Shown piece by piece: positions 20,894-62,555 of a stretch of 64,000 nt of DNA. Position 1 is the stretch's first letter; the number at the start of each line of letters is the position of its first letter. Under the pieces are notes generated by a model. It worked only from the letters and a program-made list of their open reading frames with translations, did not search any database and was not told the origin of the DNA. The position numbers and the translations under genes are program-made. Source of the DNA: Lachnospiraceae bacterium A4. Its GTDB lineage: Bacteria > Bacillota > Clostridia > Lachnospirales > Lachnospiraceae. The stretch spans positions 596,440-660,439 of the forward strand of contig KE159538.1 of the NCBI GenBank assembly GCA_000403215.2, in the 5' to 3' direction.

Positions 20894-21292
20894 TTATAAA
20901 ATATGCCACCCCGCATACAGTGTCATTGACTCTGTGACAGTGTCCTTTTCCAGATTCCACGGTCTAGTCGTATTGATATCCAGATACCAGCCATCAAAAG
21001 AATAGCCCTCCCGCGTGGGCGGGCTGGGTGCCTCGAGCAGTTCTCCGTACTGACGCTTCTGGCTTTCTACCGTTGTCCCGCCCAGAGAATCAAACTGGAC
21101 CGTAAAACCTGCGTTGGACACGCCGACTACCATGCAGAGAATGAGCGCCGCCGCGAGAACCACGATAATGATATTCAGGGATTTGACGGAGATATTAACC
21201 TTGGAATACAGCCCCCGCAACTGACGCTGGGGCACTGTATTTTTCTGGTCCTGTTTTTGTTGTTCTATAGTATTCATCGTCTGACCTGCCAT
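20894..21292 (-). CDS. Small membrane protein with one InlB/Listeria-Bacteroides repeat, in the mgl operon
   Basis: 132 residues. A hydrophilic, Gln/Lys-rich N-terminus (1-37) is followed by one membrane helix (about 38-60) and an outside domain of about 70 residues. That domain matches a single InlB B-repeat-like unit: TVQFDSLGGTTVESQ, YGELLEAPSPPTREGYSFDGWYLD and MTLYAGW. It starts 3 nt after mglC and precedes the operon terminator, so it is co-expressed with the galactose importer. Known MglBAC systems have no such subunit. It may help position the binding protein or contact the wall; this is inference. An internal ATG at 21277 is an alternative start. Confidence 0.75.
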   Translation of the reverse strand: MAGQTMNTIEQQKQDQKNTVPQRQLRGLYSKVNISVKSLNIIIVVLAAALILCMVVGVSNAGFTVQFDSLGGTTVESQKRQYGELLEAPSPPTREGYSFDGWYLDINTTRPWNLEKDTVTESMTLYAGWHIL

Positions 21293-21295
21293 CGC

Positions 21296-22312
21296 TTATT
21301 TGCGCACCAGATACTTGCGCATGTCGATTGCGCAGGCGATCAGGATTATCAAACCTTTGATGATATAGAGCATGTTGGCGTCCACGGCAAGGAAATTCAG
21401 TCCTGTAAAAATAATCTGCAAAAGCAGTACGCCCACCACAATACCGCTGATGCGTCCAATTCCGCCGACAAAGGACACGCCGCCGATTACACATGCCGCA
21501 ATCGCGTCACACTCATAGTTTAAACCAGTGTTTGCGTTCGCAGATGCGATGCGGGCGCCATCAAGAAATCCTGTGATGCCGTACATCATGCCTGCAAGCA
21601 TGAACACCATGATAATTGTGCGCATTACATTGACGCCGGAAACGTTTGCTGCCTCCTCGTTTGAGCCGACTGCAAACATATTTTTTCCAAACGTTGTCTT
21701 ATTCCAGATTATCCACATAATAATGGTAAGAATCAGGGAGTAGAGCACATATTTGGGAACTGCCACACCGCCGATGCTAAACAAGGTGCCTGTGATAAAG
21801 GAACGGTAATTGTCCGCCAGCCCGCTCAGCGTCTGGCCGTTGTTTACGCCCCGCATCAGGTACATCAAAATAGCGCCGTACACAATCAACTGTGTTGACA
21901 GTGTAACGATAAACGGGTGCAGTTTAAACTTTGCCACGCTAAAACCATTTACGAAGCCAACAAGCGCGCCCACACCGATTACCAGCAGCAGTACCAGCGG
22001 CAGCGGCGCGGCGTTTGACATATCGGGAAATACTTTAAAAACTGTTGTCAGCAGCGAGGCAGAGATACACGCTGTCAGACCGACTACACGGCCTGCGGAG
22101 ATATCCGTTCCGGTCAGCACGATACATCCGCCGATTCCCAGTGCGATTGGCAGCTTTGCTGCCGTCAGGGACAATATATTTACGATTGAGGGGATTCCCA
22201 AAAATGAGGGGCGCATAATCGTGATGTACACGACTGCCAGTGCGATAATGATGTACATGGCATTATTGAGCAGCAGATCCCCGATTTTTTTTAAATTATC
22301 TTTTTCAGCCAC
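21296..22312 (-). CDS. mglC: Galactose/methyl-galactoside ABC transporter permease
   Basis: 338 residues, highly hydrophobic with about ten membrane segments, as in RbsC/MglC permeases. Recognisable motifs are GIGGCIVLTGTDISAGRVVGLTA near the N-terminal half and NANTGLNYECDAIAACVIGGVSF near the C-terminus. The start is a GTG with AGGAGG 8 nt upstream. It lies between mglA and the InlB-like small protein in one operon. It forms the transmembrane channel of the galactose importer. Assignment to galactose rather than ribose rests on the MglB and MglA neighbours. Confidence 0.92.
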   Translation of the reverse strand: MAEKDNLKKIGDLLLNNAMYIIIALAVVYITIMRPSFLGIPSIVNILSLTAAKLPIALGIGGCIVLTGTDISAGRVVGLTACISASLLTTVFKVFPDMSNAAPLPLVLLLVIGVGALVGFVNGFSVAKFKLHPFIVTLSTQLIVYGAILMYLMRGVNNGQTLSGLADNYRSFITGTLFSIGGVAVPKYVLYSLILTIIMWIIWNKTTFGKNMFAVGSNEEAANVSGVNVMRTIIMVFMLAGMMYGITGFLDGARIASANANTGLNYECDAIAACVIGGVSFVGGIGRISGIVVGVLLLQIIFTGLNFLAVDANMLYIIKGLIILIACAIDMRKYLVRK

Positions 22313-22352
22313 AGTTCATACCTCCTGTCTATCGAAGAATTTTTGTGATCTA

Positions 22353-23882
22353 TCACGCATATTTTGCAGCCAGAGTCATAATCTCCTCCTGCGTCGCGGT
22401 CTTTGCATCTACCTCCCCGGCAAGCTGCCCACCGGACATGACTAGAATCCGGTCACACACACCCAAAAGCTCTGGCATCTCGGAGGATACCATGATGACG
22501 GTCTTGCCCTCTTTTGCCAGATTTAAAATGAGCTGGTAAATCTCATACTTCGCGCCTACGTCAATTCCGCGGGTCGGTTCGTCGAGCAGCAGCACCTCTG
22601 GGTCGGTGAGCAGCCAGCGCGCCAGAATCACCTTCTGCTGGTTACCGCCGGACAGTGAACGAATCTGCGTTTTCTGGGTCGGCGTTTTGGTGCGCATTGC
22701 ATTGATTCCCCACTCTGTCACTTCTGTGAGCTTCTTGTTGTTGAGAAGCGGAAATCCTTTATAATAGTATTTGCGCAGACTAGAGATCGTGGTGTTTGCC
22801 TGAATATCACGAATGGCAAAGATTCCTGTCGCACGCCGCTCTTCTGTGAGCAGTGCAAATTTGTTTGCGATTGATTCCCGCGCATTGCGGTTCATCACGC
22901 GTTTTCCGTGGAGATAAATCTCGCCGCCCTTGCGCGTTGCGATGCCAAATATATTTTCCAAAAGCTCTGTCCGCCCTGAGCTGTCCAGACCTGCGACGCC
23001 CAGAACCTCTCCCTTTTTGGCTACAAAGGATACGTCTTTGAGCTTGGAGTACATCGCTGTGAGGGATTTGACCTCTAGCAGCGGGCTGCCTACTACGTTG
23101 TCCTTCTCTGGATAGCGGTTTGTCAGCTCGCGCCCAACCATTAATTTAATAATCTCATTCATGGTGAGTGTCTTTGCATCGCGGGTCGCAATCCACTGGC
23201 CGTCGCGCATGATTGTCACTTCATCGGAGATACGCAGAATCTCTTCCATTTTATGAGAAATATAAATAATACCGCAGCCACGGTCACGCAGCATATTGAT
23301 AATTCTGAACAAATGTTCTACTTCTTCTTCTGTCAGGGAAGAAGTCGGCTCGTCAAACACGATAATCTTGGATTGATACGAAACCGCCTTGGCAATCTCC
23401 ACCATCTGCCGCTGGGATACAGGCATGGTGCTCATCACCCGCTTGGGGTCCACATTGATTTCCAAATCTTCGAAGAGCTTCTTCGTCTCCTCATACATCT
23501 TTTTCTCGCTGGTGAGCGGACACCAGCTTGCAATCCGCGGAAAACGCCCCAGCCACATATTGTCCATCACATTGCGCTTGAGTGCCTGATTCAACTCCTG
23601 ATGCACCATCGCCACGCCGTTCTCGAGCGCCTCTTTGGAGTTCTTGAACTCTACCTTTCTGCCCTCCAGATATACGTCGCCGCTGTCCTTTGAATACACG
23701 CCGAACAGACATTTCATCAGTGTGGATTTGCCGGCTCCGTTCTCTCCCATCAGCGCGTGGACGGTTCCCGCCTTCACGGTCAGATGGACGTTGTCGAGCG
23801 CCTTGACACCGGGAAATTCTTTGCAAATTCCCTCCATCTTTAGGAGGACATTTGCGGAAGCATTTGTCTCCTGCATCTTCAT
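22353..23882 (-). CDS. mglA: Galactose/methyl-galactoside ABC transporter ATPase, tandem nucleotide-binding domains
   Basis: About 509 residues with two fused ABC domains. The first has Walker A GENGAGKSTLMK and Walker B IIVFDEPTSSLTEEE. The second has the degenerate Walker A-like GLDSSGRTELLENIFG, the signature LSGGNQQKVILARWLL and LLLDEPTRGIDVGAKYEIYQ. This asymmetry is typical of sugar importers of the RbsA/MglA class. The ATG at 23882 is chosen with AGGAGG 5 nt upstream. A UUCG hairpin separates it from mglB. It powers import through MglC. Confidence 0.93.
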   Translation of the reverse strand: MKMQETNASANVLLKMEGICKEFPGVKALDNVHLTVKAGTVHALMGENGAGKSTLMKCLFGVYSKDSGDVYLEGRKVEFKNSKEALENGVAMVHQELNQALKRNVMDNMWLGRFPRIASWCPLTSEKKMYEETKKLFEDLEINVDPKRVMSTMPVSQRQMVEIAKAVSYQSKIIVFDEPTSSLTEEEVEHLFRIINMLRDRGCGIIYISHKMEEILRISDEVTIMRDGQWIATRDAKTLTMNEIIKLMVGRELTNRYPEKDNVVGSPLLEVKSLTAMYSKLKDVSFVAKKGEVLGVAGLDSSGRTELLENIFGIATRKGGEIYLHGKRVMNRNARESIANKFALLTEERRATGIFAIRDIQANTTISSLRKYYYKGFPLLNNKKLTEVTEWGINAMRTKTPTQKTQIRSLSGGNQQKVILARWLLTDPEVLLLDEPTRGIDVGAKYEIYQLILNLAKEGKTVIMVSSEMPELLGVCDRILVMSGGQLAGEVDAKTATQEEIMTLAAKYA

Positions 23883-23907
23883 TCTCACCTCCTGCTTGAA
23901 TTAGCAA

Positions 23908-23929
23908 CAGCCGCACCGAAGTGCGGCTG
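23908..23929 (-). promoter_or_regulatory. mglB-mglA intercistronic UUCG hairpin
   Basis: A perfect 9-bp stem (23908-23916/23921-23929) closes on the extra-stable loop UUCG when read on the minus strand. There is no U-tract. In binding-protein operons such hairpins protect the upstream message or slow read-through, giving more binding protein than ATPase. Role inferred. Confidence 0.75.
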
Positions 23930-23951
23930 CATCGTCGATGACTGATGTTGA

Positions 23952-25133
23952 TTAGTTGCCTGTATATGTAGCATACGGAATGTTGACACGCCATGTACCA
24001 ACCACATTTGCGGAATCTACGCCGTCAAATGCTTCCTTGCCGTCCATATAATTCGCTGTGATGCTTGCGATGGTATTTGCCATACCTTCTGCGTCCTGTT
24101 TGATCGTGCCGATCATAGAGCCTGCTGCGATGGCATCTTTTGCTGCATCTGTCGCGTCCACGCCAAATACAGGAATCACTGTAGCGCCCTCTTTATTGTA
24201 GCCTGCATTCTGCAATGCGGTAATGGCGCCGATTGCCATCTCGTCATTGTTTGCGATCACGAGCTCAACCATGTTGTTGTTTGCCTCGCTGTACTGTGAC
24301 ATGATTGTCTGCATATACTCTGTCGCTGCTGCGGAGGACCATGCGCCCGCCTGATCTACCAGATACTTGTTGCTGTTTGCGCTGTCATAGAAGCTCAGTG
24401 CCGGCTTGCCTGCGCCTGTCAGAATCGCGTCTGCGTCCTCCTGACCGTACTGTGTTCTCGCATCTGCCTCTGCGTTGCCCTCCTGACCCTTGAACATTAC
24501 GTAAGAGATTGTGCCGTCGCCGTTCAAATCCAGTGTGTCATAGTTTTCCAACAGATAGTTTCCGATCATCTCGCCCTGCATATGTCCAGCCATCTCATAG
24601 TCTGTGCCGACAAAGACGCACTTGTCTGAGCTTGTCACTGCTTCCTCGCTCACAGAGCGGTTGAAGAAAATAACTGGAACGCCGTTTGCCTGTGTGATGA
24701 TGTTCTTTGCCGCGTCATCGGAACCTGTGTCTACCAGATTGACTACAAGTACTGTCGCGCCCTGTGTAAGCGCTGTCGTCACCTGCTCGGACTGGGTTGT
24801 CTGGCTGTTGTTGCTGTCATAATCCTGATACTTGATGCCCGCTGCGTCGAGTGCGGAATCCAATGCTGCGCGCACACTTGAAATGTATGTATCACCATAG
24901 GTATAGTAGAATACTGCCACACTTCCATCTTTGGAAGCCGGCGCTTCTGTGTCCGCTGGCGCTGCGGTATCTGTGTCCGCCGCCGCTGGTGTGTCTGTCT
25001 TTGCATCTGAGTTAGAAGCTGTGTTTGAATTTGATGCCGGTGCACTGTCGCTCTTGCCGCCGCACGCTGTCATAAATACCAGCATTGAGACAGAGAGCAA
25101 TGTGCACAAAAATTTTTTGTTGAATTTTTTCAT
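23952..25133 (-). CDS. mglB: Galactose-binding lipoprotein of the Mgl importer
   Basis: 393 residues. The lipoprotein signal ends at TACGG (Cys24), followed by a Ser/Thr/Ala/Asp-rich linker (about 27-67). The RbsB-type fold begins at VAVFYYTYGDTYISSVRAAL. A calcium-site loop DLNGDGTISY matches the EF-hand-like site characteristic of MglB, and NNDEMAIGAITALQNAG is the conserved hinge region. These features point to glucose/galactose binding. It is the first gene of the operon behind a consensus promoter and an AGGGAGGT ribosome site. The protein sits on the outer face of the membrane and feeds MglC. Confidence 0.93.
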   Translation of the reverse strand: MKKFNKKFLCTLLSVSMLVFMTACGGKSDSAPASNSNTASNSDAKTDTPAAADTDTAAPADTEAPASKDGSVAVFYYTYGDTYISSVRAALDSALDAAGIKYQDYDSNNSQTTQSEQVTTALTQGATVLVVNLVDTGSDDAAKNIITQANGVPVIFFNRSVSEEAVTSSDKCVFVGTDYEMAGHMQGEMIGNYLLENYDTLDLNGDGTISYVMFKGQEGNAEADARTQYGQEDADAILTGAGKPALSFYDSANSNKYLVDQAGAWSSAAATEYMQTIMSQYSEANNNMVELVIANNDEMAIGAITALQNAGYNKEGATVIPVFGVDATDAAKDAIAAGSMIGTIKQDAEGMANTIASITANYMDGKEAFDGVDSANVVGTWRVNIPYATYTGN

Positions 25134-25359: not shown

Positions 25360-25411
25360 TGACACTTCTGTCATTTTTGTAGTAGTGCTCCCTAAAAAAA
25401 TGCGCTATAAT
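25360..25411 (+). promoter_or_regulatory. Operator and promoter of the second two-component system
   Basis: The inverted repeat TGACA-N4-TGTCA (25360-25373) resembles the BceR-type consensus TNACA-N4-TGTNA. A perfect -10 TATAAT lies at 25406-25411, with no recognisable -35. From operator centre to the -10 start is 39.5 nt, almost identical to the ABC promoter at 27520. This suggests positive autoregulation by the regulator at 25507. Confidence 0.65.
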
Positions 25412-25506
25412 ACAATAAACTCCCACCGCCGTATAGCTGCGCAAAACCAGCGGCAGGCGCAAGAGAGATTCCGAGAGACAATTTATGCCAAAAGGAGGCT
25501 TGTCCC

Positions 25507-26187
25507 ATGACCAGAATATTATTATTGGAGGACGATGCCAGTCTGATTGACGGGCTGGAATACGCCCTTGGAAAAAATGGGTTCGATGTAGAAACCGTGC
25601 GCACCGTGAGCGGGGCAATGGCGTGTATGCGCCAGTCTGCGCCCTATGATTTGCTGCTTCTCGATGTCACCCTGCCCGACGGCACAGGCTTTGAGGTCTG
25701 TGAGAAGCTGCGGGCAGACGGCAGCCAGCTCCCCATTATATTTCTCACAGCCTCCGACGAGGAGGTGAATGTTATCCGCGGTCTGGACAGCGGCGCAGAC
25801 GACTATATCACAAAGCCCTTTAAGCTCGGAGAGCTGTGCTCCCGAATCCGTGCGCTGCTGCGGCGGACAAACTACACTGCCGAGCCTGTGCTCTCCTCCG
25901 GTGCCCTCTCGATGGACTTTGCCGCAAACCGTGTGACGGTGGACGGCGCCGCCGTGGAACTGACACGGGCAGAATACCGCCTGCTCAGCCTGCTTGTGCG
26001 GAACGCAGACCACGTTGTCACAAGAGAGACGATCTTGGACGCACTCTGGGACAATACAGGGGATTTTGTGGACGACAATACTTTGTCCGTGTACATACGG
26101 CGGCTTCGCGAGAAGGTTGAGCCTGACCCGTCACAGCCACAGCATTTGATTACGGTGCGCGGATTTGGATACCGTTGGATGCCATAA
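25507..26187 (+). CDS. OmpR-family response regulator of a peptide-resistance-type system
   Basis: 226 residues. The receiver has EDD at 8-10, phospho-acceptor Asp53 in LLLDVTLPD and Lys103 in ITKPF. The winged-helix output domain (about 128-226) ends in LITVRGFGYRWMP. AAAAGGAG precedes the ATG at 25507. It is transcribed with the kinase 21 nt downstream and is followed by an ABC transporter of MacB/FtsX type. Matching inverted repeats upstream of both units suggest that this regulator controls both. The layout resembles Bce-like bacitracin or host-peptide response modules. Confidence 0.92.
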   Translation: MTRILLLEDDASLIDGLEYALGKNGFDVETVRTVSGAMACMRQSAPYDLLLLDVTLPDGTGFEVCEKLRADGSQLPIIFLTASDEEVNVIRGLDSGADDYITKPFKLGELCSRIRALLRRTNYTAEPVLSSGALSMDFAANRVTVDGAAVELTRAEYRLLSLLVRNADHVVTRETILDALWDNTGDFVDDNTLSVYIRRLREKVEPDPSQPQHLITVRGFGYRWMP

Positions 26188-26208
26188 TAAGATGAAAAGG
26201 AGATGCAC

Positions 26209-27516
26209 ATGACTATGGACACAAGACTGATGCAGGACCAGCAAGTACGGCGGTATTTTCTCTTTCTGAGTGCACTGTCGCTTTTTCTGCTGCTCGCCGC
26301 AATGCTATTATGCCGCGGTGCGGCACAGGAGGCAAAAACAATGCTTCTGCGCCATGATACATCAATCGCTGCCTCGCTCAGCGCACAGGGGGTTCCTGAG
26401 ATCGTGATCGCGCGGGCGCTCACTGACACCAGTGTCAGTTTTGGCGGCACCGGCAGTCAAATGCAGGCAGGCGAAAGGCTTCTGACAAAAATCGGCGTCC
26501 GTCCAGCACTGGAGACACAGTTTCTTCCACAGCTCCAGAACTTTCAAATAAATACAGGCAGGCGCGCCCTGACGCTGGTGCTTCCAGCCTGTCTCATCCT
26601 CCTTGGCGCCAGCCTGCGATTTTTTTTGAAACGGGACGCGCTTTACCAGCGCGCCGCCGCTATGATTGACAGCTATGCGATCGGATGTTTTTCCTGCCGC
26701 CTGCCGCAGATGGGCGAAGGTTCTCTCTATCAGATGTTCTCCGCCGTGGACAGGTTAGCAACCATGCTTCAGGCTCAGAATGACACCGAGCGCGCATCAA
26801 AGATTTTCCTGCGAAATACCATCTCCGATATTTCCCATCAGCTAAAGACACCTTTGGCTGCACTGTCCATGTATCAGGAAATTATGGAAAATGAGCCTGA
26901 CCAGCCAGATGTGATACGCCAGTTTGCCGCCAAGACCGGAACTGCACTCAAACGCATGGAGCAGCTCATCCAATCCATGCTTAAGATCACAAGGCTTGAC
27001 GCGGGAAATGTGGTGTTTGAGCGGCAGGAATGCGATCTGTATAAACTAATCTTGCAAGCTATAAGCGAACTGACGACACGCGCCTTAAATGAAGGGAAGA
27101 TATTGATCATGGACAGGACCTCCGCATCGGACTCTTTGGCGGAAACCATCGTGTGTGACCCTGCTTGGACCGTTGAGGCAGTCGGCAATCTCGTCAAAAA
27201 TGCGCTCGATCACACCCACACAAACGGCACCATCCGCATCACATGGGAAACGTCGCCACTGAGTACAATCATTCGAATCGCTGATGATGGGGACGGTATT
27301 GCACCTGAGGATATCCATCATATTTTTAAGCGTTTTTACCGGAGCAGCCAGTCGTCTGACACACCCGGCATCGGACTGGGACTGCCGCTTGCCAAGTCGA
27401 TTGTGGAGGGACAGGGCGGAACGATTACCGTGCAGAGCACACCGCAGCTTGGGACTTGTTTTACAATTTTTTTCCCTAACGCGCTCAAATCCTGCGATAC
27501 TTCTGATGCCTCATAA
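26209..27516 (+). CDS. Sensor histidine kinase of the peptide-resistance-type system
   Basis: About 435 residues from the ATG at 26209, with AAAAGGAG 6 nt upstream. Helix 1 (about 15-36) and helix 2 (about 118-139) enclose an external loop of about 80 residues, so it is not an intramembrane-sensing (BceS) kinase. Then come a HAMP-like linker, the phosphorylation helix ISDISHQLKTPLAAL and an ATPase domain with NLVKNALDHTHTNG, IADDGDGIAPED, FKRFYRS and GIGLGLPLAKSIVEGQGG. All catalytic boxes are intact. Partner of the regulator at 25507. Confidence 0.92.
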   Translation: MTMDTRLMQDQQVRRYFLFLSALSLFLLLAAMLLCRGAAQEAKTMLLRHDTSIAASLSAQGVPEIVIARALTDTSVSFGGTGSQMQAGERLLTKIGVRPALETQFLPQLQNFQINTGRRALTLVLPACLILLGASLRFFLKRDALYQRAAAMIDSYAIGCFSCRLPQMGEGSLYQMFSAVDRLATMLQAQNDTERASKIFLRNTISDISHQLKTPLAALSMYQEIMENEPDQPDVIRQFAAKTGTALKRMEQLIQSMLKITRLDAGNVVFERQECDLYKLILQAISELTTRALNEGKILIMDRTSASDSLAETIVCDPAWTVEAVGNLVKNALDHTHTNGTIRITWETSPLSTIIRIADDGDGIAPEDIHHIFKRFYRSSQSSDTPGIGLGLPLAKSIVEGQGGTITVQSTPQLGTCFTIFFPNALKSCDTSDAS

Positions 27517-27519
27517 AAC

Positions 27520-27573
27520 CTTACAAATCCGTAAGCTAAAATTCACCTCCCTGTAACCTGCATTTGCTATGAT
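27520..27573 (+). promoter_or_regulatory. Operator and promoter of the MacB/FtsX-type ABC transporter
   Basis: The dyad CTTAC-N6-GTAAG (27520-27535) contains TTACA-N4-CGTAA, close to the BceR-like TNACA-N4-TGTNA. A -10 TATGAT (27568-27573) follows, again without a clear -35. The centre-to--10 distance is 40.5 nt, within 1 nt of the site at 25360. Likely activated by the regulator at 25507. Confidence 0.6.
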
Positions 27574-27675: not shown

Positions 27676-28407
27676 ATGGAGATTTTACAAGTAAACAATC
27701 TATGCAAAACCTACGGGAAAGGCGAGACGCAGGTCAATGCCTTAAGAAATGTGTCCTTCTCACTGGAGAAAGGAGCATTCTGCGCAGTGATCGGCGAGTC
27801 CGGCTCTGGCAAGAGCACGCTTTTAAACTGCATCGGCGCACTTGACACTCCCACATCGGGGGAAATCCGCATTGACGGGCACAATCTTTTTACATTGAAG
27901 GAGAAGGAGCGCACGATCTTTCGGCGGCGCAATATTGGCTTTATTTTTCAGTCTTTTCAGCTTGTGGCGGAGCTGACTGTGGAGCAAAATATCATCTTTC
28001 CGCTGCTGCTTGACTATTGTAAGCCGGACCCGGCGGTCGTTGAGGAGATACTAGAAATCCTCGGCTTAGAGAACAGGCGCCGCCATCTGCCGAACCAGCT
28101 CTCCGGCGGACAGCAGCAGCGTGTCGCCATCGGGCGCGCCTTAATCACAAGACCCAAGCTGATTCTGGCTGATGAACCGACAGGCAACCTCGACAGCCGC
28201 AACAGCCAGGAGGTACTTGACCTGCTCGTCAAAGCGTCAAGACAGTATCAGCAGACAATCTTGATGATCACGCACAACAATGCGCTGGCAGCATCCACTG
28301 ACAAGGTGCTGCGCGTGGCAGACGGCTGTCTGTACGATGATTGCCAGTCTAATCCGAAAAATACAACCGGGAAAGGAGCATTGTACAGAGATGAGAAATT
28401 ATCTTGA
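27676..28407 (+). CDS. ABC transporter ATP-binding protein, LolD/MacB/BceA-type
   Basis: 243 residues. Walker [12 protein letters not shown] (about 40-50), Q-loop FIFQSFQLV, signature [15 protein letters not shown], Walker [16 protein letters not shown] and H-loop MITHN place it in the MacB/LolD/BceA ATPase family. The ATG at 27676 begins the conserved [14 protein letters not shown]; the nearest AGGAG (27656-27660) is 15 nt away, longer than usual. It overlaps the permease gene by 17 nt. Together they should move peptides or lipids away from or through the membrane rather than import nutrients. Confidence 0.92.
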
Positions 28408-30772
28408 ACTTGTTGCGCTCTACGCAAAGGCACACCGGAAGCAAAACCGCATGTCCGTCTTTTGCATCTATTTGTCTGTGCTGCTTGTGACAGCCATCTT
28501 TGGCATGGCGGATATGTATATTCAGAGCCAGCTTATTAAGACCAAGCAGGAGGATGGCAACTGGCATATTGCACTCAAATCCATCAGCGATGCGGAAGCT
28601 GAACTGATTGCAGCGCGCCCTGAGGTCCGCGTGCTTTCCTGCTATGGCACATTGAATTATGCTCTTGACAAAGGCTATCAGATTGCGGGCAAGGATGTCG
28701 TCATCTGCGGAAGTGAGGCTTCTTTATTGGATGAAATCTATGCCAATACGATCTCGGAGGGCACATTTCCACAAACGAACCAAGAAGTGCTTGTGAGTGG
28801 CAATATCAAAAAGGAGCTAGGGCTTTCTATTGGCAGCCAGATCGCCATATGCGACAGTGACGGCGCAGAAACCTTTTTCACCATATCTGGCTTTGCCAAT
28901 GACCTGCCCATGATACTGAGCAAGGACATTTATGGTGTCTTTATGAATACTCGTTCCTTCCGCAGCTTTTATCCGAATGTGGAGAACGGCACACCAGATA
29001 ACTACAACAGTTGTTTTCTGGTTCAGTTTCACAACCACCGCACAATACGCCAAACCATCAATGACATCAAGACACAGTTCCAGCTATCAGATACGCAGAT
29101 TGGCGAACAGGCAATGCTGCTGGGACTAATGGGACAGGGCGATGAGGGAAACCAATTTATGATGATGATTTACACTGCTGCCGCCATTCTGTCCGCACTG
29201 GTTCTGCTGGCAGGTGTTCTTATGATTGCAGGAAGCCTTAACAGCAATATCGCCGGACGGACGCAGTTCTTCGGAATGCTCCGCTGTGTGGGCGCGACAC
29301 CGGGACAGATTATGCGCCTCGTCCACAGGGAAGCGCTCAGTCTGTGCACCTTTGCCATCCCTGTAAGCATCCTTTCAGGTACAGTCATCATCTGGGTGCT
29401 GTGCGCGGTTCTTCGTGCACTCAGTCCCATTTATTTTGCCACCATGCCTGTCTTTGCGGTCAGTCTGCCAAGCATTGGCGCCGGCGCTGTCATTGGCATT
29501 TTAACAGTGCTGCTTGCATCGCGCGCACCTGCAAAAAGGGCGTCAAAGGCGTCCCCGCTCACGGCAGTGTCAGGAAACGCCAACCGGCTTATGCCCGTGC
29601 ACCGCGCCGCCAGCACGACATTCTGCAAAATTGAGACCGCACTTGGCATTCATCACGCCAAGGCAAGCCGCAGAAATCTTCTGCTGGTTTCCGCGTCCTT
29701 TGCCTTGAGCATTATCCTCTTTTTGTCCTTCTCCACGACGATTGACTTCATGAAGCACGCCATCAAGGCGCTGAACCCGTGGACACCAGATATCACGATC
29801 ATGCATAGGGAAGACGGCGAAGCCTCATGCACCATCGACCGCTCGCTGCTCACAGCATTGCAGGAAAATCCGGCTGTCAAACGCGCTTACGGCCGCATGT
29901 TTGCATACAATCTTCCGACGCTGTCAAACGGCAGAGAAAATACCGCTGTCCTAATCTCCTATGACGCACAACAGTTTCAGTGGGCCAAAAAATACCTGTT
30001 AAACGGTTCCCTAAATGATGTGCAGACACAGACCAATACAGGTCTTATCGTATCAGCGCCCCAGTACAACAACCAAACGCAGATTCAGACAGGGGACACC
30101 GTAGCGCTCACCATTCATGGTCAGACCGCTGAAATAACGATAACAGGTATGGTGTCTGAAAGTCCCTTTCATGCATCTGACGGCGACATTATTCTGTGCT
30201 CGGAGGAGACATTTCGGCAGATTACAGGTGAGGATGCGTACACCGTCATTGACCTCCAGCTAAACCGCAGGGCTATGGAGGCAGATGTGGATGCTATTCG
30301 TGCACTGGCGGGCACAGACTGCACCATTTCTGACCAGCGCATGAACAATCAGAGTGTGCTTGGCGCAAACTATTCCTTTAAGCTGTTTCTGTATGGGTTT
30401 CTGTTTCTGATAGCCATGGTGACAATCTGCAATATTATGAACTGTGTCGCCATGAGTGTTGAGGCGCGAACGAAGCAGTACGGCGGACTGCGCGCCATCG
30501 GAATGAGTGATGATCAGCTCACGAAGATGATTGTTGCCGAGACAATCACTTATGCGGCAGTGGGCGGAATCAGCGGAACAATACTGGGACTCTTCTTAAA
30601 TAAAAAACTATATGAATTTCTAGTGACCTATCGCTGGAATGACCCATGGCAGCCTCCGGCAGCAGAGCTTTGTATTATCTTTCTGATCGTCGTGATCTCG
30701 ATCATACTGGCAATACACACGCCCGTCAAAAAGCTTCAAAAAATGTCGATTGTGGAGACAATCTCACACTAA
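28391..30772 (+). CDS. FtsX/MacB-type ABC permease
   Basis: 793 residues from the ATG at 28391. A first membrane helix (about 20-40) is followed by a large extracytoplasmic domain (about 45-250), three helices in the first FtsX unit (about 260-390), a second helix/outer-domain pair (about 425-660) and a final three-helix FtsX unit (about 665-790) with RAIGMSDDQLTKMIVAETITY. This duplicated layout fits mechanotransmission-type ABC proteins that handle antimicrobial peptides or lipoproteins. The two big outer domains could contact a peptide or its target. Followed by a bidirectional terminator. Confidence 0.88.
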   Translation: MRNYLELVALYAKAHRKQNRMSVFCIYLSVLLVTAIFGMADMYIQSQLIKTKQEDGNWHIALKSISDAEAELIAARPEVRVLSCYGTLNYALDKGYQIAGKDVVICGSEASLLDEIYANTISEGTFPQTNQEVLVSGNIKKELGLSIGSQIAICDSDGAETFFTISGFANDLPMILSKDIYGVFMNTRSFRSFYPNVENGTPDNYNSCFLVQFHNHRTIRQTINDIKTQFQLSDTQIGEQAMLLGLMGQGDEGNQFMMMIYTAAAILSALVLLAGVLMIAGSLNSNIAGRTQFFGMLRCVGATPGQIMRLVHREALSLCTFAIPVSILSGTVIIWVLCAVLRALSPIYFATMPVFAVSLPSIGAGAVIGILTVLLASRAPAKRASKASPLTAVSGNANRLMPVHRAASTTFCKIETALGIHHAKASRRNLLLVSASFALSIILFLSFSTTIDFMKHAIKALNPWTPDITIMHREDGEASCTIDRSLLTALQENPAVKRAYGRMFAYNLPTLSNGRENTAVLISYDAQQFQWAKKYLLNGSLNDVQTQTNTGLIVSAPQYNNQTQIQTGDTVALTIHGQTAEITITGMVSESPFHASDGDIILCSEETFRQITGEDAYTVIDLQLNRRAMEADVDAIRALAGTDCTISDQRMNNQSVLGANYSFKLFLYGFLFLIAMVTICNIMNCVAMSVEARTKQYGGLRAIGMSDDQLTKMIVAETITYAAVGGISGTILGLFLNKKLYEFLVTYRWNDPWQPPAAELCIIFLIVVISIILAIHTPVKKLQKMSIVETISH

Positions 30773-45078: not shown

Positions 45079-45678
45079 TCAGCGCACGAGCTGCATCATC
45101 AGCTCACTTCCTGTCATCATTTTATCTTTTGTAATAATGAGTAACCTGTATTTCAAAAAAGGATTGAGCTGCTGCTTTGCCGCCTCACGGTCACAGATCC
45201 CAAACTTCTGCGCTTCCAGATTGGCGTAAGTACAGTTCATCAAAACAAGAATACAGCGGCATCTGGCGTGATATAGCTTTAGATATGCACAGAGATCTTC
45301 GAAATGCTGCGACTTATCCACAATGGACTCTGGATTATCCACCACATCACTGCACATTATATTATTTTTACTGTCCTGTGTCACTTCCTCAAACGCGCGT
45401 CCCATCAAAATAAATGACATTGGTGTCACTTTTGAGGTGATTTTATCGGTGTGCCAGTACACCATATTACTGCGCATATTTTGAAACATTTTGTCATGCG
45501 CCTTGAGCGATGCCACGGCATCTTTGAGTGAACTGCAAATTTCATTCATATCACCTGACATTGGTGTCACAAATGCAATCTCCGGCTGATGCCCATTTGC
45601 AGGCGCATTGGAGGGCGCATGAAAGATTTTGTCCACCCGTTTATTTAACTCAAGCCTCTGTAGTGGTGTCAGTGCCAT
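45079..45678 (-). CDS. Conserved-looking protein of unknown function
   Basis: 199 residues without signal peptide or membrane segments. The opening ALTPLQRLELNKRVDKIF, a central AFVTPMSGDMNEICSSLKDA and the Cys-rich HARCRCILVLMNCTYANLEAQKFG do not match a family I know. TAGGAG precedes the ATG. It stands alone with a hairpin on either side (45033-45058 and 45802-45823). The predicted composition is soluble, mixed alpha/beta. No function assigned. Confidence 0.65.
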   Translation of the reverse strand: MALTPLQRLELNKRVDKIFHAPSNAPANGHQPEIAFVTPMSGDMNEICSSLKDAVASLKAHDKMFQNMRSNMVYWHTDKITSKVTPMSFILMGRAFEEVTQDSKNNIMCSDVVDNPESIVDKSQHFEDLCAYLKLYHARCRCILVLMNCTYANLEAQKFGICDREAAKQQLNPFLKYRLLIITKDKMMTGSELMMQLVR

Positions 45679-58322: not shown

Positions 58323-61300
58323 CTATCGATAGAGCACATAATCCTGCATTTCCCGGAAAAATCCTGCGCGCGTCAGTGCCTCTCCTGCAAAATCAGGATA
58401 ATTCTTGACTACAATGCGCTTGCGTGCCGGAAAGAGCTTTCCTTTTTTATAACACGCTGAAAATTCTGCAAGACATGCCTCCGCCAGTTCTTCCTCAAAC
58501 ACGCGCAGCGTAGCTCCCTGACGCTCTATCACGGCGGCTGGCATTCCTCCACAACAGGCAACCGCAGTGCCCGGCACATTGATGAAGCTGCGCCCCTCCA
58601 TATGAGGCAGAAGCTTCCCCCAGCACTGTACAGGGTCTGCTGCATTTACCCACACAATCTCCTTTGGTATCGTCTGCCCGTTTCTGGCAAGCTGGCGCAC
58701 CACAGCTTCATACTCATTTCCGCGGAGAAACTGTGCACCCGACAGCCCCTCGACAAAATATCCCCGCCTCGCCTGTCCAGTGTACTCCCAGACACGCAGC
58801 ACAGACAGCGCCTCCTGCCATGCAAGCCCGCATACTGCTGCCGTCTCCCGGCACACGATAATATATCGGTCAAAGCACTGTTCCAATGCGGTTTTCAAAG
58901 ACTGCTCGTCAGACTGTGCATCTGTCGCTTGTCTTAATGGACGCACAAGGTCCCATCTCCCGGCGCGCAATGCCTTCACATGCATACTCACACGCTGTTT
59001 TGCAGTCACTTTTTTGGTGTGCTCCTGATTTCGCCACTGCCGCACTGGGACAAAACTATCTGCGCAGACCAGTCCTTTTTCCATCAGAGACATAAGCGTA
59101 TCATACGGAGATTCGCTGCCAAATACATTGTTCAAAGACTGCATAAAGCTGGCGCCGCGCTTTTGCAATGTATGATACAAAAGCTGTTCTTTCTCGCTAA
59201 GTTCACCATCCACCGCGCTCAGCAGACTGTCCGGCGCCGCGTCCCAGTCAATCCCCTCCTGAAGCTCAAAGCGCAGGCCGCCCTTTCCCTGTATGCACCA
59301 GAACACCTCCCCCTCGGCAAGATAAGCGTCCAGCACCGTTTCTTTATATTGCTTTACCCAGCGCGGAAAAAGGATATCCTCCCAATAGGAAACAGGAAGT
59401 GTAGTTCCCGCATAATACTTTAAAACTTCCGTCAGCGCCTCCTTTGCAGGCGCACTGGACTCCATGCGGGACAGCAGCAGTGCCGCATAGGTTTGTGCAG
59501 GGCAGGTCTGGGCTTCATTGCGGCGGTTTTTTAAAGTCTGTATACCGGCGCGGCGGTATAATTCCGCATGATAATATTTGCCGTCCTGTCTGACTGCCTC
59601 CTTGCGGCTGCAAAGCTCTTCTAAGATAGCCTCTGCAAGAGAGAACGGCAATCCATAACGGCTGGCAGTCTGGGCAACATCGGCGGCACCGCGGTAGCGC
59701 AGCATTCGCCGCACAATCTGGAGCTGTGCTTCACAGGGTTTTGCCGCAAAATCTGCGGTGTTATCAGCCAAAACTGCTGTGCCGAGTGCCTCCGCGTATT
59801 TTTCTGTCTCCTCTGCGGCAATCCACAACCCCTGCTCGAGATAACACACCCTGCCATTTTGTGCCAGACTGTCCAGCCACTCCACAGGTACCTCCAGCTC
59901 TCCTGCTGCCAGATCACCTTCTGTCATCAGCAGTGCATGAAGCTGGCGCGCATCTTTTGGCAGTTTTTCCCTGAGTAAGTGATATTCCTGAAGCTGTGAT
60001 AACTCCTGACTCCCCGGTTTTACTGCCTCCTTTAACATATCCTCCACTGCGTTGTGGATTCCACGCGGTGTCGGCGCATAATCATACATCACCGCGGCTT
60101 CCTGTGCCCATTGCAGCGGCAGGGACATTGGGGAAGCCGTCTCCGTATAAATTTCCCGCACCTTTACCGTGCCTGCGCAGATCTCACACAGCAGTTCTCG
60201 CACGCCCTCGGCATCCCACAACTCCTGCATACATTCCTGCCTCGTCTCACGAATCAAGGGATGCCTGTCTTCACGGACTACCTGTTCTAATAATTCCGCG
60301 CTCTTTAACCGCTGCTTCCAGAGAGGCTGACGGCTGTTTTTGCGCACGCCCATCATCAATGCCCTGCCGCAGTTATACCTAAAAGCCATGTTAAAGACTG
60401 GCGCCGCCGGCAGCAATATCTCTAATTTTCTGACACAGGTGTCAGGAGAAATGCTCTGCAAGATGCCTTCTGGCAGTGTTCTGCTTCCATACGAATACAG
60501 TAAAAATCCATCTTCCTCGTCCACGCTGCCAATCTCTATGCCAAGACGTTCCCTTGCTGTCTGGGCAGCCAGCAACGAAAGCGGCGCATTGATCCGCCTG
60601 CCAAACACCGAGTGAAACATCAACTGGCTGTTTCCAGATGAATCCCTGAAATGCTCTACCAGAATGGTCTTGTCGTCCTGCAAGCACCCAAGCGCCTTAA
60701 TCTGCCGTTCTAAATAGCCCGCAGCAAGGGAGACTGCGGTGCTGTCAAGTCCCATCTGATGCAGCGCTTCTGAGAGTTTTCCGTCCTCGTATGCCTGCTG
60801 TAACATATGGAACATGCGCCCAAATGCCTCTCCGGTGTGTCTGTCCCTCCCTTTGATTTCTCCCTTCCAGAAGGGGAGTCGCGCGCCCTCCACATGCGCC
60901 TGCACAACAGTCACAAGATCACGGCTGATGTTCGTGATTTTCCATGCAAACGCGCCGAGAATAAAGCGGTCTCCTCTCTGGGATTCATAGACAAATTCCT
61001 CGTCAACCTCTCCAAGCTTAACGCCATCCTCTGTTTTTACAGTATAAAGTCCCTTGTCGGGAATCGTGCCGCCTGCCGAGACTGCGAGCATTCTGCTGTA
61101 TCCGTCCCCCTCCACGCGCTCATGAAGCCTGTCATAGAGAATCCTTGGACGCACTGGCAGCTCCCGCGCATGTTCATAATCTCCCGCCAGCATACAGAGT
61201 ACCGACTGAACATCCTCCCTTGTAATCTCCCGAAAATTCCATGCACGCGGCAGAATTTCCATCACATCCTCCAATGTATAACTTTGAAACGCCGCCATCG

Positions 61301-62555
61301 AGACAAGATGCTGCGCCAGCACGTCCAAACACTGTACAGGCGGATGAATATGCTCTACACCGCCCTGTCTTGCAAGCTGTGCAGTCATGCCGCAGGAGAC
61401 ACACTCCGCCGCCGTCCTTGGAAACAGGTACATGACGCTTGTCCGCCCCGGATTGTGTCCAGCGCGCCCCAGCCGCTGCATTGTGCTGGATACAGTGCGC
61501 GGACATCCGACTTGCAGTACCTTGTCAATCTCCCCCACATCAATGCCAAGCTCCATCGAGGAGGTGGCACACAAGAGCCGCAGCCTGCCATCGCGCAGCG
61601 CCTCCTCTGTCTCTTTTCGCTGTTCTTTTGAGAGGCTGCCGTGATGCACGCGCGCAAAGTCCTCCCCGCCAATCAGATTCACATAATACGCAAGCTTCTC
61701 CGCGTACCTTCTGCCCTCCACAAAAGCAATCACGCTGCGGCTTCCATGGCAGTACTCATAGACCAGTGCGCTCAGTTCCTCCCAGACTGGGTCCTTTCTT
61801 TTGTTCCGCACAGAATCTGCATACGGTCCCAGGATATCAAGGCGGATTTCTTTTTTCATGGCGGGCGCTGCGATCACAACCTCCTCCGGTGCCAGATATT
61901 CTGCAGCCTCCTCCAAAGGTTCTATCGTGGCAGAAAGCCCAATCCGCTGTAGTGGTGCGCCGCACAGAATATCCAGACGTGCGAGGGAAAGCATCAGATG
62001 TGCACCGCGTTTTGTGTCGATCAATGCATGCAGCTCGTCAATAATCACTGTTTTTGCCGTTGCCAGCACATTTTGTCCTGTCTTGCTGGTCAGCATCAAA
62101 TACAGGGATTCGGGTGTGATAATCAGGATATGGGGCGGCTTTTTAACCATCTGCTGCCTGTCCCTCTGGGGAGTGTCTCCCGTCCGAATGCCAACGGTTA
62201 TCTCCGCCTGTGATCCGGCGCCGCTGCCAATCCCATCCAGCGGACGCCTTAAATTTTCACGGATATCCGCCGCGAGCGACTTTAGCGGTGAGACATAGAT
62301 TAAGCACAGTTCTTGCTGTAATGTCCCCTCCTCAGCCTGCCGCTTCATCTGGTCCAAGAAAACAAGGAACGCAGAAAGTGTCTTTCCCGTTCCTGTAGGC
62401 GCTGATACCAGCACATGTCTTCCTGCTTTGATGCCAGGCCATGCCTCCTTTTGTACTAAAGTAGGTTCGCCAAGCGTGTCTTGAAACCATTTTTGTGTCT
62501 CTTTCTCAAACAGTGTTAATACATTTTCTACTGTATCCAATCTCTGACTCTCCAC
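58323..62555 (-). CDS. Lhr-type large ATP-dependent DEAD/H-box helicase
   Basis: 1410 residues. The N-terminal Lhr core (about 1-870) carries Walker A VSAPTGTGKTLSAFLVF, motif II IDELHALIDTKRGAHL (DELH), motif III LSATIEPLEEA, motif V MELGIDVGEID and motif VI QRLGRAGHNPGR. The long C-terminal part (about 870-1410) is helical and shares the length of full-size Lhr proteins. Lhr proteins unwind 3'-tailed RNA:DNA hybrids and act in repair. A GTG start with a weak site at 62553-62555. Flanked by a TIGR02452 protein and an RNase H gene further left. Confidence 0.9.
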   Translation of the reverse strand: MESQRLDTVENVLTLFEKETQKWFQDTLGEPTLVQKEAWPGIKAGRHVLVSAPTGTGKTLSAFLVFLDQMKRQAEEGTLQQELCLIYVSPLKSLAADIRENLRRPLDGIGSGAGSQAEITVGIRTGDTPQRDRQQMVKKPPHILIITPESLYLMLTSKTGQNVLATAKTVIIDELHALIDTKRGAHLMLSLARLDILCGAPLQRIGLSATIEPLEEAAEYLAPEEVVIAAPAMKKEIRLDILGPYADSVRNKRKDPVWEELSALVYEYCHGSRSVIAFVEGRRYAEKLAYYVNLIGGEDFARVHHGSLSKEQRKETEEALRDGRLRLLCATSSMELGIDVGEIDKVLQVGCPRTVSSTMQRLGRAGHNPGRTSVMYLFPRTAAECVSCGMTAQLARQGGVEHIHPPVQCLDVLAQHLVSMAAFQSYTLEDVMEILPRAWNFREITREDVQSVLCMLAGDYEHARELPVRPRILYDRLHERVEGDGYSRMLAVSAGGTIPDKGLYTVKTEDGVKLGEVDEEFVYESQRGDRFILGAFAWKITNISRDLVTVVQAHVEGARLPFWKGEIKGRDRHTGEAFGRMFHMLQQAYEDGKLSEALHQMGLDSTAVSLAAGYLERQIKALGCLQDDKTILVEHFRDSSGNSQLMFHSVFGRRINAPLSLLAAQTARERLGIEIGSVDEEDGFLLYSYGSRTLPEGILQSISPDTCVRKLEILLPAAPVFNMAFRYNCGRALMMGVRKNSRQPLWKQRLKSAELLEQVVREDRHPLIRETRQECMQELWDAEGVRELLCEICAGTVKVREIYTETASPMSLPLQWAQEAAVMYDYAPTPRGIHNAVEDMLKEAVKPGSQELSQLQEYHLLREKLPKDARQLHALLMTEGDLAAGELEVPVEWLDSLAQNGRVCYLEQGLWIAAEETEKYAEALGTAVLADNTADFAAKPCEAQLQIVRRMLRYRGAADVAQTASRYGLPFSLAEAILEELCSRKEAVRQDGKYYHAELYRRAGIQTLKNRRNEAQTCPAQTYAALLLSRMESSAPAKEALTEVLKYYAGTTLPVSYWEDILFPRWVKQYKETVLDAYLAEGEVFWCIQGKGGLRFELQEGIDWDAAPDSLLSAVDGELSEKEQLLYHTLQKRGASFMQSLNNVFGSESPYDTLMSLMEKGLVCADSFVPVRQWRNQEHTKKVTAKQRVSMHVKALRAGRWDLVRPLRQATDAQSDEQSLKTALEQCFDRYIIVCRETAAVCGLAWQEALSVLRVWEYTGQARRGYFVEGLSGAQFLRGNEYEAVVRQLARNGQTIPKEIVWVNAADPVQCWGKLLPHMEGRSFINVPGTAVACCGGMPAAVIERQGATLRVFEEELAEACLAEFSACYKKGKLFPARKRIVVKNYPDFAGEALTRAGFFREMQDYVLYR

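Follow-up and report, generated by a model that had tools for sequence, protein, structure and literature searches.

The window analysed here, a stretch of 64,000 nucleotides (nt) from Lachnospiraceae bacterium A4 (contig KE159538.1, positions 596,440 to 660,439), contains a module made up of a response regulator, a sensor histidine kinase and an ATP-binding cassette (ABC) transporter. The first-pass annotation had paired two inverted repeats of this module, TGACACTTCTGTCA at 25360-25373 upstream of the regulator gene and TTACAAATCCGTAA at 27521-27534 upstream of the transporter genes, as BceR-like sites of a common activator. Both repeats are indeed found at these places. However, our analysis suggests that two unrelated DNA elements had been paired. 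In its letters, the repeat at 27521 is an operator of the Bce type, and we propose that it forms half of a conserved double operator. The repeat at 25360, in contrast, is a copy of a palindrome, TGACA-N4-TGTCA, that occurs throughout the genus. We hold this explanation, an operator plus a chromosome-wide palindrome, with moderate confidence.

The operator stands out when homologous modules are compared. These were drawn from named loci selected by kinase homology (the best 80 of 218) and from 30 loci of the same genus (38 genomes including the window's own, 24 of which were matched). The two sets overlap in some modules and together provided 109 modules besides that of the window, with an ABC gene downstream in 104. 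The relatives that could be named were Lachnospiraceae metagenome-assembled genomes and Acetatifactor. The repeat TTAC-N6-GTAA was present upstream of the ABC gene in 88/104 modules, and the exact tandem, scored as TTAC-N6-GTAA-N8-TCA[CT]-N6-GTAA, in 84/104 (duplicates included). Mononucleotide shuffles produced the single repeat 0.4 times on average and three times at most. After merging regions whose last 60 nt were identical, 86 distinct upstream regions remained, among which 71 displayed the single repeat and 67 the exact double site, with 15/15 in the close group (modules with at least 54% kinase identity). Twelve of the 16 modules without the repeat were among the most distant homologues (40-44% kinase identity).

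In the window, the layout reads TTAC-N6-GTAA, 8 nt, TCAC-N6-GTAA, 11 nt, TATGAT. The second half, TCACCTCCCTGTAA (27543-27556, plus strand), had been missed by the first-pass annotation. It lies 22 bp after the first half (27521-27534, plus strand), of which it is the conserved partner, and it covers the -35 position, which is why the transporter promoter has no -35 box. The -10 box TATGAT (27568-27573, plus strand) is preceded by TGC and starts 11 nt after the second half; where a -10-like box was scored in homologous double sites (76 cases), it stood at this same distance in 71. By pattern alone the site at 27521 is unremarkable, being one of 46 matches to TNACA-N4-TGTNA (at most one mismatch) in the window. 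Shuffling predicted 27.6 such matches, and no shuffle reached 46.

The repeat was rare upstream of the regulator gene. Among 101 regulator promoters, examined up to 250 nt upstream, TTAC-N6-GTAA was found in seven, and in 0/17 of the close ones. Its conservation before the ABC gene and its rarity before the regulator gene suggest that the most likely target of activation by the response regulator is the transporter and not the regulator itself. We postulate that the regulator would bind as dimers to the tandem sites at 27521 and 27543, that the downstream dimer, placed on the -35 position, would recruit RNA polymerase to the extended -10 box at 27568, and that the ABC transporter and its permease would thereby be switched on. 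Three homologous loci (L063 10387, L072 10373 and L088 10339) displayed another tandem operator of this type about 3.2 kb further down, which may mean that the regulon reaches past the module.

The repeat at 25360 displayed a different behaviour. It lies between the regulator gene and a divergent operon on the minus strand (20894-25133) that, by sequence reading, encodes a sugar-type ABC transporter. TGACA-N4-TGTCA was absent from all 101 homologous regulator promoters within 250 nt upstream of the gene, and the two closest homologous promoter regions gave no alignment with the window around 25360. The nearest relative of the site was a one-mismatch TGAAACAGCTGTCA at -196 in a single orthologue (L025, which is the same again as L107). 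This orthologue is one of the points that speak for one BceR-like activator binding both 25360 and 27521 and controlling both promoters, as are the seven regulator promoters with TTAC-N6-GTAA. In addition, both sites agree with TNACA-N4-TGTNA apart from one mismatch at most, and the annotated distances from their centres to the -10 boxes are correct (39.5 nt to TATAAT at 25406-25411 and 40.5 nt to TATGAT). The lack of a -35 box at both promoters was likewise borne out, as a promoter scan gave no -35/-10 pair at either box. TGACA-N4-TGTCA is also known as an operator of OmpR-family regulators, according to excerpts of the literature on CopR/CusR (PMC12428095) and on a site before vraFG (PMC3128592). 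Nonetheless, the absence of the palindrome from the homologous regulator promoters, the missing TTAC-N6-GTAA in the close ones and the spread of the 14-mer over the genome, mostly within genes, make a shared activator very improbable. The match in spacing, which had been taken as its support, is best regarded as a coincidence.

The abundance of the palindrome is already visible in the window, where five copies were found against 0.08 expected. Apart from 25360, all of these are intragenic: one lies inside the kinase gene (TGACACCAGTGTCA, 26424-26437), two inside an open reading frame (ORF) at 45079-45678 on the minus strand (45415-45428 and 45556-45569), and one (60431-60444) inside the minus-strand ORF 58323-62555, helicase-like by sequence reading. 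Both of the closest kinase orthologues (75% and 69% identity) carry the copy at 26424 at an unchanged codon position, with different spacer codons, and the other kinase homologues of 53-64% identity have no copy there. The ORF at 45079-45678 encodes 199 amino acids (aa), had no Pfam match and carries its two copies 141 bp apart. An ORF of another genome (G308, locus L166, 4927-5517), similar to it at the start as judged by eye, has no copy.

The draft genome to which the window belongs (labelled G000) comprises 6.96 Mb in 40 contigs, and dnaA is about 15 kb from the window. This genome contained 220 copies of TGACA-N4-TGTCA compared to 14 of a reversed control, ACTGT-N4-ACAGT. When inverted repeats of 5-mers containing two or more G/C were ranked at spacers of 0-10, the palindrome came out as the most enriched one both in G000 (0.86 Mb, -log10 p of 39.5) and in G308 (0.74 Mb, -log10 p of 49.2), and one-mismatch half-sites were far less enriched than the perfect form. 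The flanks in G308 are rich in A/T (AWWWA...TWWWT), with C and G preferred at the inner bases; both trends are weaker in G000. When the spacer between TGACA and TGTCA was varied from 0 to 30 over 464 kb of G000 (20 fetched stretches, five of which had been chosen for holding copies), spacer 4 gave 30 occurrences against about 1.8 expected, and the other spacers 0 to 5. This single peak argues against word bias or codon bias as the source. TGACA is among the 40 commonest of the 1091 five-letter words counted, as an origin in codon or peptide bias would have it. Yet the copies are spread over two reading frames and also lie in intergenic DNA, and in most copies within mnmE the ACA and TCA codons are kept while the spacer amino acids vary, which leaves this origin scarcely credible. 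The same 464 kb also held nine occurrences of TGTCA-N13-TGACA, in which the half-site order is reversed (about 1.8 expected); these could represent either a second layout or a repeat.

The palindrome is restricted in its taxonomic spread. In a set of 116 genomes including the window's own, each of the 38 genus members had a raised count, between 22 and 310 copies (controls 1-14). Four non-genus genomes stood out: G357 (80 copies), G366 (40), G341 (25) and G360 (20). In contrast, 298 other genomes of a phylum-level sample had 0 to 21 copies, and nine genomes of one family in this sample (f18) had 3-21, with controls of 1-8. Among 36 genomes reached through the named loci, 15 had 50-194 copies, including two Acetatifactor with 80 and 50, and 21 had at most 10, including Hungatella hathewayi (8), an Anaerocolumna (9) and a Blautia (6). 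Some of these 36 are the same as genomes of the 116-genome set (G439 and G357 share counts and places), so that members of the genus may be among the 15. Within the genus, G309 had only 22 copies and the other members 59-310; G309 has possibly lost the protein that reads the sites. Meanwhile, the control pattern ACTGT-N4-ACAGT reached 28 copies each in G234 and G445 (Anaerocolumna) compared to 0-14 in the other genomes searched, suggesting that other lineages may carry a palindrome of their own.

Most copies lie within genes. Using ORFs called by a simple script, 44 of 47 sampled copies in G000 were intragenic (43 if 25360, which falls in a doubtful ORF of 82 aa, is left aside) and 39 of 49 in G308, where ORFs make up fractions of 0.90 and 0.87 of the sampled DNA, respectively. 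The mean relative position of the copies within their ORFs was 0.47 and 0.44, i.e., near the middle. The genes concerned include polA and, by sequence reading, dnaN, gyrB, recF, jag and mnmE. Thus, the copies are not concentrated upstream of genes as would be expected for operators of a transcription factor.

Several of these intragenic copies are kept in place between species. In codon alignments of 12 genes close to the origin of replication (ori), copies occurred at the same codon of gyrB (367) in 3/11 genomes, including the Acetatifactor G357, of recF (208) in 3/11 and of dnaN (210) in 2/11. In mnmE (28 loci, from 27 genus genomes whose gene was fetched), an indel-rich loop at codons ~349-356 carries a perfect copy in 14 genomes and one with a single mismatch in four more, if those at codons 349, 352 and 355 are taken for a single site that indels have shifted. 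These copies read NTG-ACA-NNN-NTG-TCA, with variation in the middle codons and in the surrounding length. At jag codon 228, the palindrome was perfect in 10 of 23 aligned sequences and had one mismatch in seven. The same codons are kept while the spacer codons change, which argues that the palindrome is very probably under selection at the level of DNA.

A site for a global transcription factor of the Crp/Fnr, OmpR or MerR type, with the copies inside genes weakly selected or regulatory, has to be weighed against these data. The 5-4-5 geometry and the A/T-rich flanks of G308 resemble such operators as they are generally described, and three copies fall within 119 bp around the start of a gene that is fabZ-like by sequence reading (G308, L191 17453-17571). 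However, there is no strong preference for intergenic regions (only three or four of the 47 G000 copies are outside genes), and the maintenance of copies inside mnmE, jag, recF and gyrB also speaks against such a site, which we consider unlikely.

The distribution along the chromosome points to clustering and to a likely, though not clean, bias towards ori. Of the 31 gaps between neighbouring copies in 400 kb of G308, 14 were shorter than 3 kb, compared to 6.7 at random (P 0.0006). Near dnaA, 24 copies were found in 13 stretches of seven genus genomes compared to about 13.7 predicted from the genome means, an uneven excess of about 1.8-fold. G308 displayed 27 very unevenly spaced copies in the 260 kb around dnaA (-140 to +120) and a single copy in 200 kb sampled further right. 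G000 had 14 copies in about 143 kb sampled around dnaA and none in three 20-kb stretches far left. On its contig C1, near 740 kb, the GC skew of G000 changes sign from minus to plus, as it would at an origin, yet dnaA is on contig C12; this change is perhaps the edge of an inversion or a misassembly.

A number of observations weigh against our explanation. The excess near ori is modest and uneven: G299, despite the highest total, had two copies in 40 kb where about four were expected. Some far regions are dense, among them part of contig C1 of G000, and some arms are nearly empty. Clustering was weaker in two blocks of G000 (P 0.034 and 0.139). Copies in G308 are commoner between genes (10 of 49) than the ORF fraction predicts, which also suits a global transcription factor. 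Under a simple null, ordinary windows were equally conserved in 1.0% of cases for mnmE and 1.5% for jag, and neither site is extreme singly. Copies also turn over, as G000 itself has no copy in mnmE and one mismatch in jag. Certain variants are enriched as well (TGACA-N4-CGTCA, 13 compared to 1.6 in G000; TGACA-N4-TCTCA, 3 compared to 0.5 in G308), so the motif may be looser than stated. Finally, the predicted operator is known here from its conservation and layout, and the chromosomal role is read from the pattern of sites and involves a putative binder.

With these reservations, we continue to favour an operator plus a chromosome-wide palindrome. The genus appears to maintain the 14-bp palindrome at a density of about one copy in 10-160 kb, with little regard for gene boundaries, in clusters and with some excess near oriC. 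Like RacA at its ram sites, or like Noc, a dimeric sequence-specific protein would most likely use the sites as landmarks of the chromosome, in segregation, compaction or the control of division. A gut lineage consisting of the genus, Acetatifactor and a few neighbours would then possess a chromosome-wide positional code of TGACA-N4-TGTCA (20-310 copies), located within genes, clustered, kept in place within lineages over deep divergence and read by a putative dimeric organiser or segregator beside parS. We give this broader claim slightly less than an even chance.

ParB is not the simple answer to which protein reads the sites because the canonical parS, TGTTTCACGTGAAACA, is separate and present in 2-3 exact copies in each of 12/12 genomes. 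WhiA, whose site reportedly contains GACAC, was considered from the literature alone (excerpts of PMC10714963) for the TGACAC preference in G308.

Another candidate is a RacA-like protein with a MerR helix-turn-helix, a long linker and a charged C-terminal half, for which the palindrome would be a centromere-like binding site. The ram sequence, which is said to be TGACGCCGNCGTCA, suggested this link. Excerpts of PMC6593407 describe ram sites as dense near ori and also spread elsewhere. The protein, located at C23:386171-387094 in G000, is present in 36 of the 38 genus genomes, and the three best-scoring relatives outside the genus belong to G357, G366 and G341, the top three of the four non-genus genomes that stood out by copy number; gyrB kinship is a partial confounder of this agreement. 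Conversely, the family also occurs in motif-free genomes (G338, G350, G359 and others), and G359 displayed no palindrome of comparable strength in 400 kb. There was no match at 1e-6 in the motif-rich G324 (114 copies, 97% complete) and G334 (117), and G299, with 310 copies, has only a divergent match (54% over the helix-turn-helix). For the DNA-binding part, RacA models gave matches in 17 and 15 of the 18 members, and RacA structure 5i41 was matched at E 4e-7, but the model scores are far below the curated cut-offs (24 compared to 170 and 22 compared to 265 bits for the member shown), the candidate is not a RacA equivalog by these models, and ordinary MerR regulators are better matches in the PDB. 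Other binders are possible, and we regard a RacA-like reader as rather improbable.

The palindrome might also be over-represented through a link to a methyltransferase or DNA repair, without a structural binder, like HIP1 of cyanobacteria. Compared to HIP1, which is a contiguous and reportedly far denser 8-mer, TGACA-N4-TGTCA is longer, split and, at the density given above, far rarer, and its strong clustering in G308 is a further point against such an origin. It is nevertheless over-represented, gene-blind and limited to a clade, as HIP1 is according to excerpts of PMC4390886, and on balance we find a HIP1-like origin quite improbable.

The genes of the module are all on the plus strand. The response regulator (25507-26187) matches the OmpR family, with a receiver and a winged helix domain, and is followed by the sensor histidine kinase (26203-27516), a LolD/MacB-like ABC ATP-binding protein (27676-28407) and a 793-aa permease (28391-30772). 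Bce-type peptide resistance modules share this order of regulator, kinase, ABC protein and permease. Their defining features are an intramembrane kinase, whose two helices are joined by a very short loop, and a permease that carries a single large external domain towards the end of its sequence. In contrast, hydropathy alone places about 75 residues between the two hydrophobic segments of the kinase (~15-44 and 120-144), consistent with the external domain proposed by the first-pass annotation. The permease is of the duplicated FtsX type, as had also been noted: domain matches gave two FtsX stretches, and hydropathy gave seven segments with two long soluble gaps (46-254 and 455-661). Its best PDB matches were MacB, LolF and YtrF; PsdB was weaker. 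The earlier view that the system is Bce-like in control but not in sensor design thus seems sound, since operator letters and conservation fit, and because of its kinase we do not file the module as a Bce module.

These findings carry a warning, as a palindrome close to a promoter can match a known operator and yet be something else. A genome-wide count together with the promoters of homologous modules can tell an operator from an unrelated palindrome. For transporter modules of this kind, which form a large family, the double operator offers a well-defined target sequence. To our knowledge, palindromes that mark chromosomes are known in few bacteria and have usually been found through their protein. 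Here the sites were found before the protein, in a gut lineage, and the natural range of 22-310 copies within one genus offers a ready system to find the reader, for which TGACACNNGTGTCA is the probe form of the palindrome, and to learn the function of the sites. Acetatifactor has a cultured species, A. muris. A search of one open-access library with the motif string brought up CopR, GraR, a bceAB consensus and plant WHIRLY proteins; in titles and the beginnings of abstracts, neither this search nor further ones turned up a chromosome-wide motif.

Several known systems can be compared to the two elements. The module differs from GraRS-VraFG of Staphylococcus aureus in its double operator with a 22-bp step over the -35 position, in the real external part of its kinase and in having one permease of 793 aa with duplicated FtsX. 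Both systems share the regulator-kinase-ABC layout and an inverted-repeat operator before the transporter; as described in excerpts of PMC3128592, there is none before the S. aureus regulator, which is not autoregulated, and the regulator of the window is apparently not self-acting either. Besides gene order, Bce-type modules have in common with the window the letters of the operator, as 27521 and 27543 each deviate by one mismatch from the consensus TNACA-N4-TGTAA (excerpts of PMC9020739). The CopR/CusR operator given in excerpts of PMC12428095 is identical in letters to the palindrome, but those sites are in cop promoters. Like the palindrome, the ram sites of RacA are many and also present elsewhere than near ori; they are dense near ori (excerpts of PMC6593407 and PMC4949633), where the palindrome has a modest and uneven excess. 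The palindrome differs from them in its 220 copies in G000, which extend beyond the ori region, and in its putative binder. It also differs from the sites of Noc and RefZ, which reportedly have another sequence, in its turnover between species and its strong clusters. Even so, it is spread over the chromosome like the sites of Noc, and it is palindromic with kept positions like the nearly palindromic motifs of RefZ, whose positions relative to oriC are conserved across a genus, according to excerpts of PMC6657595.

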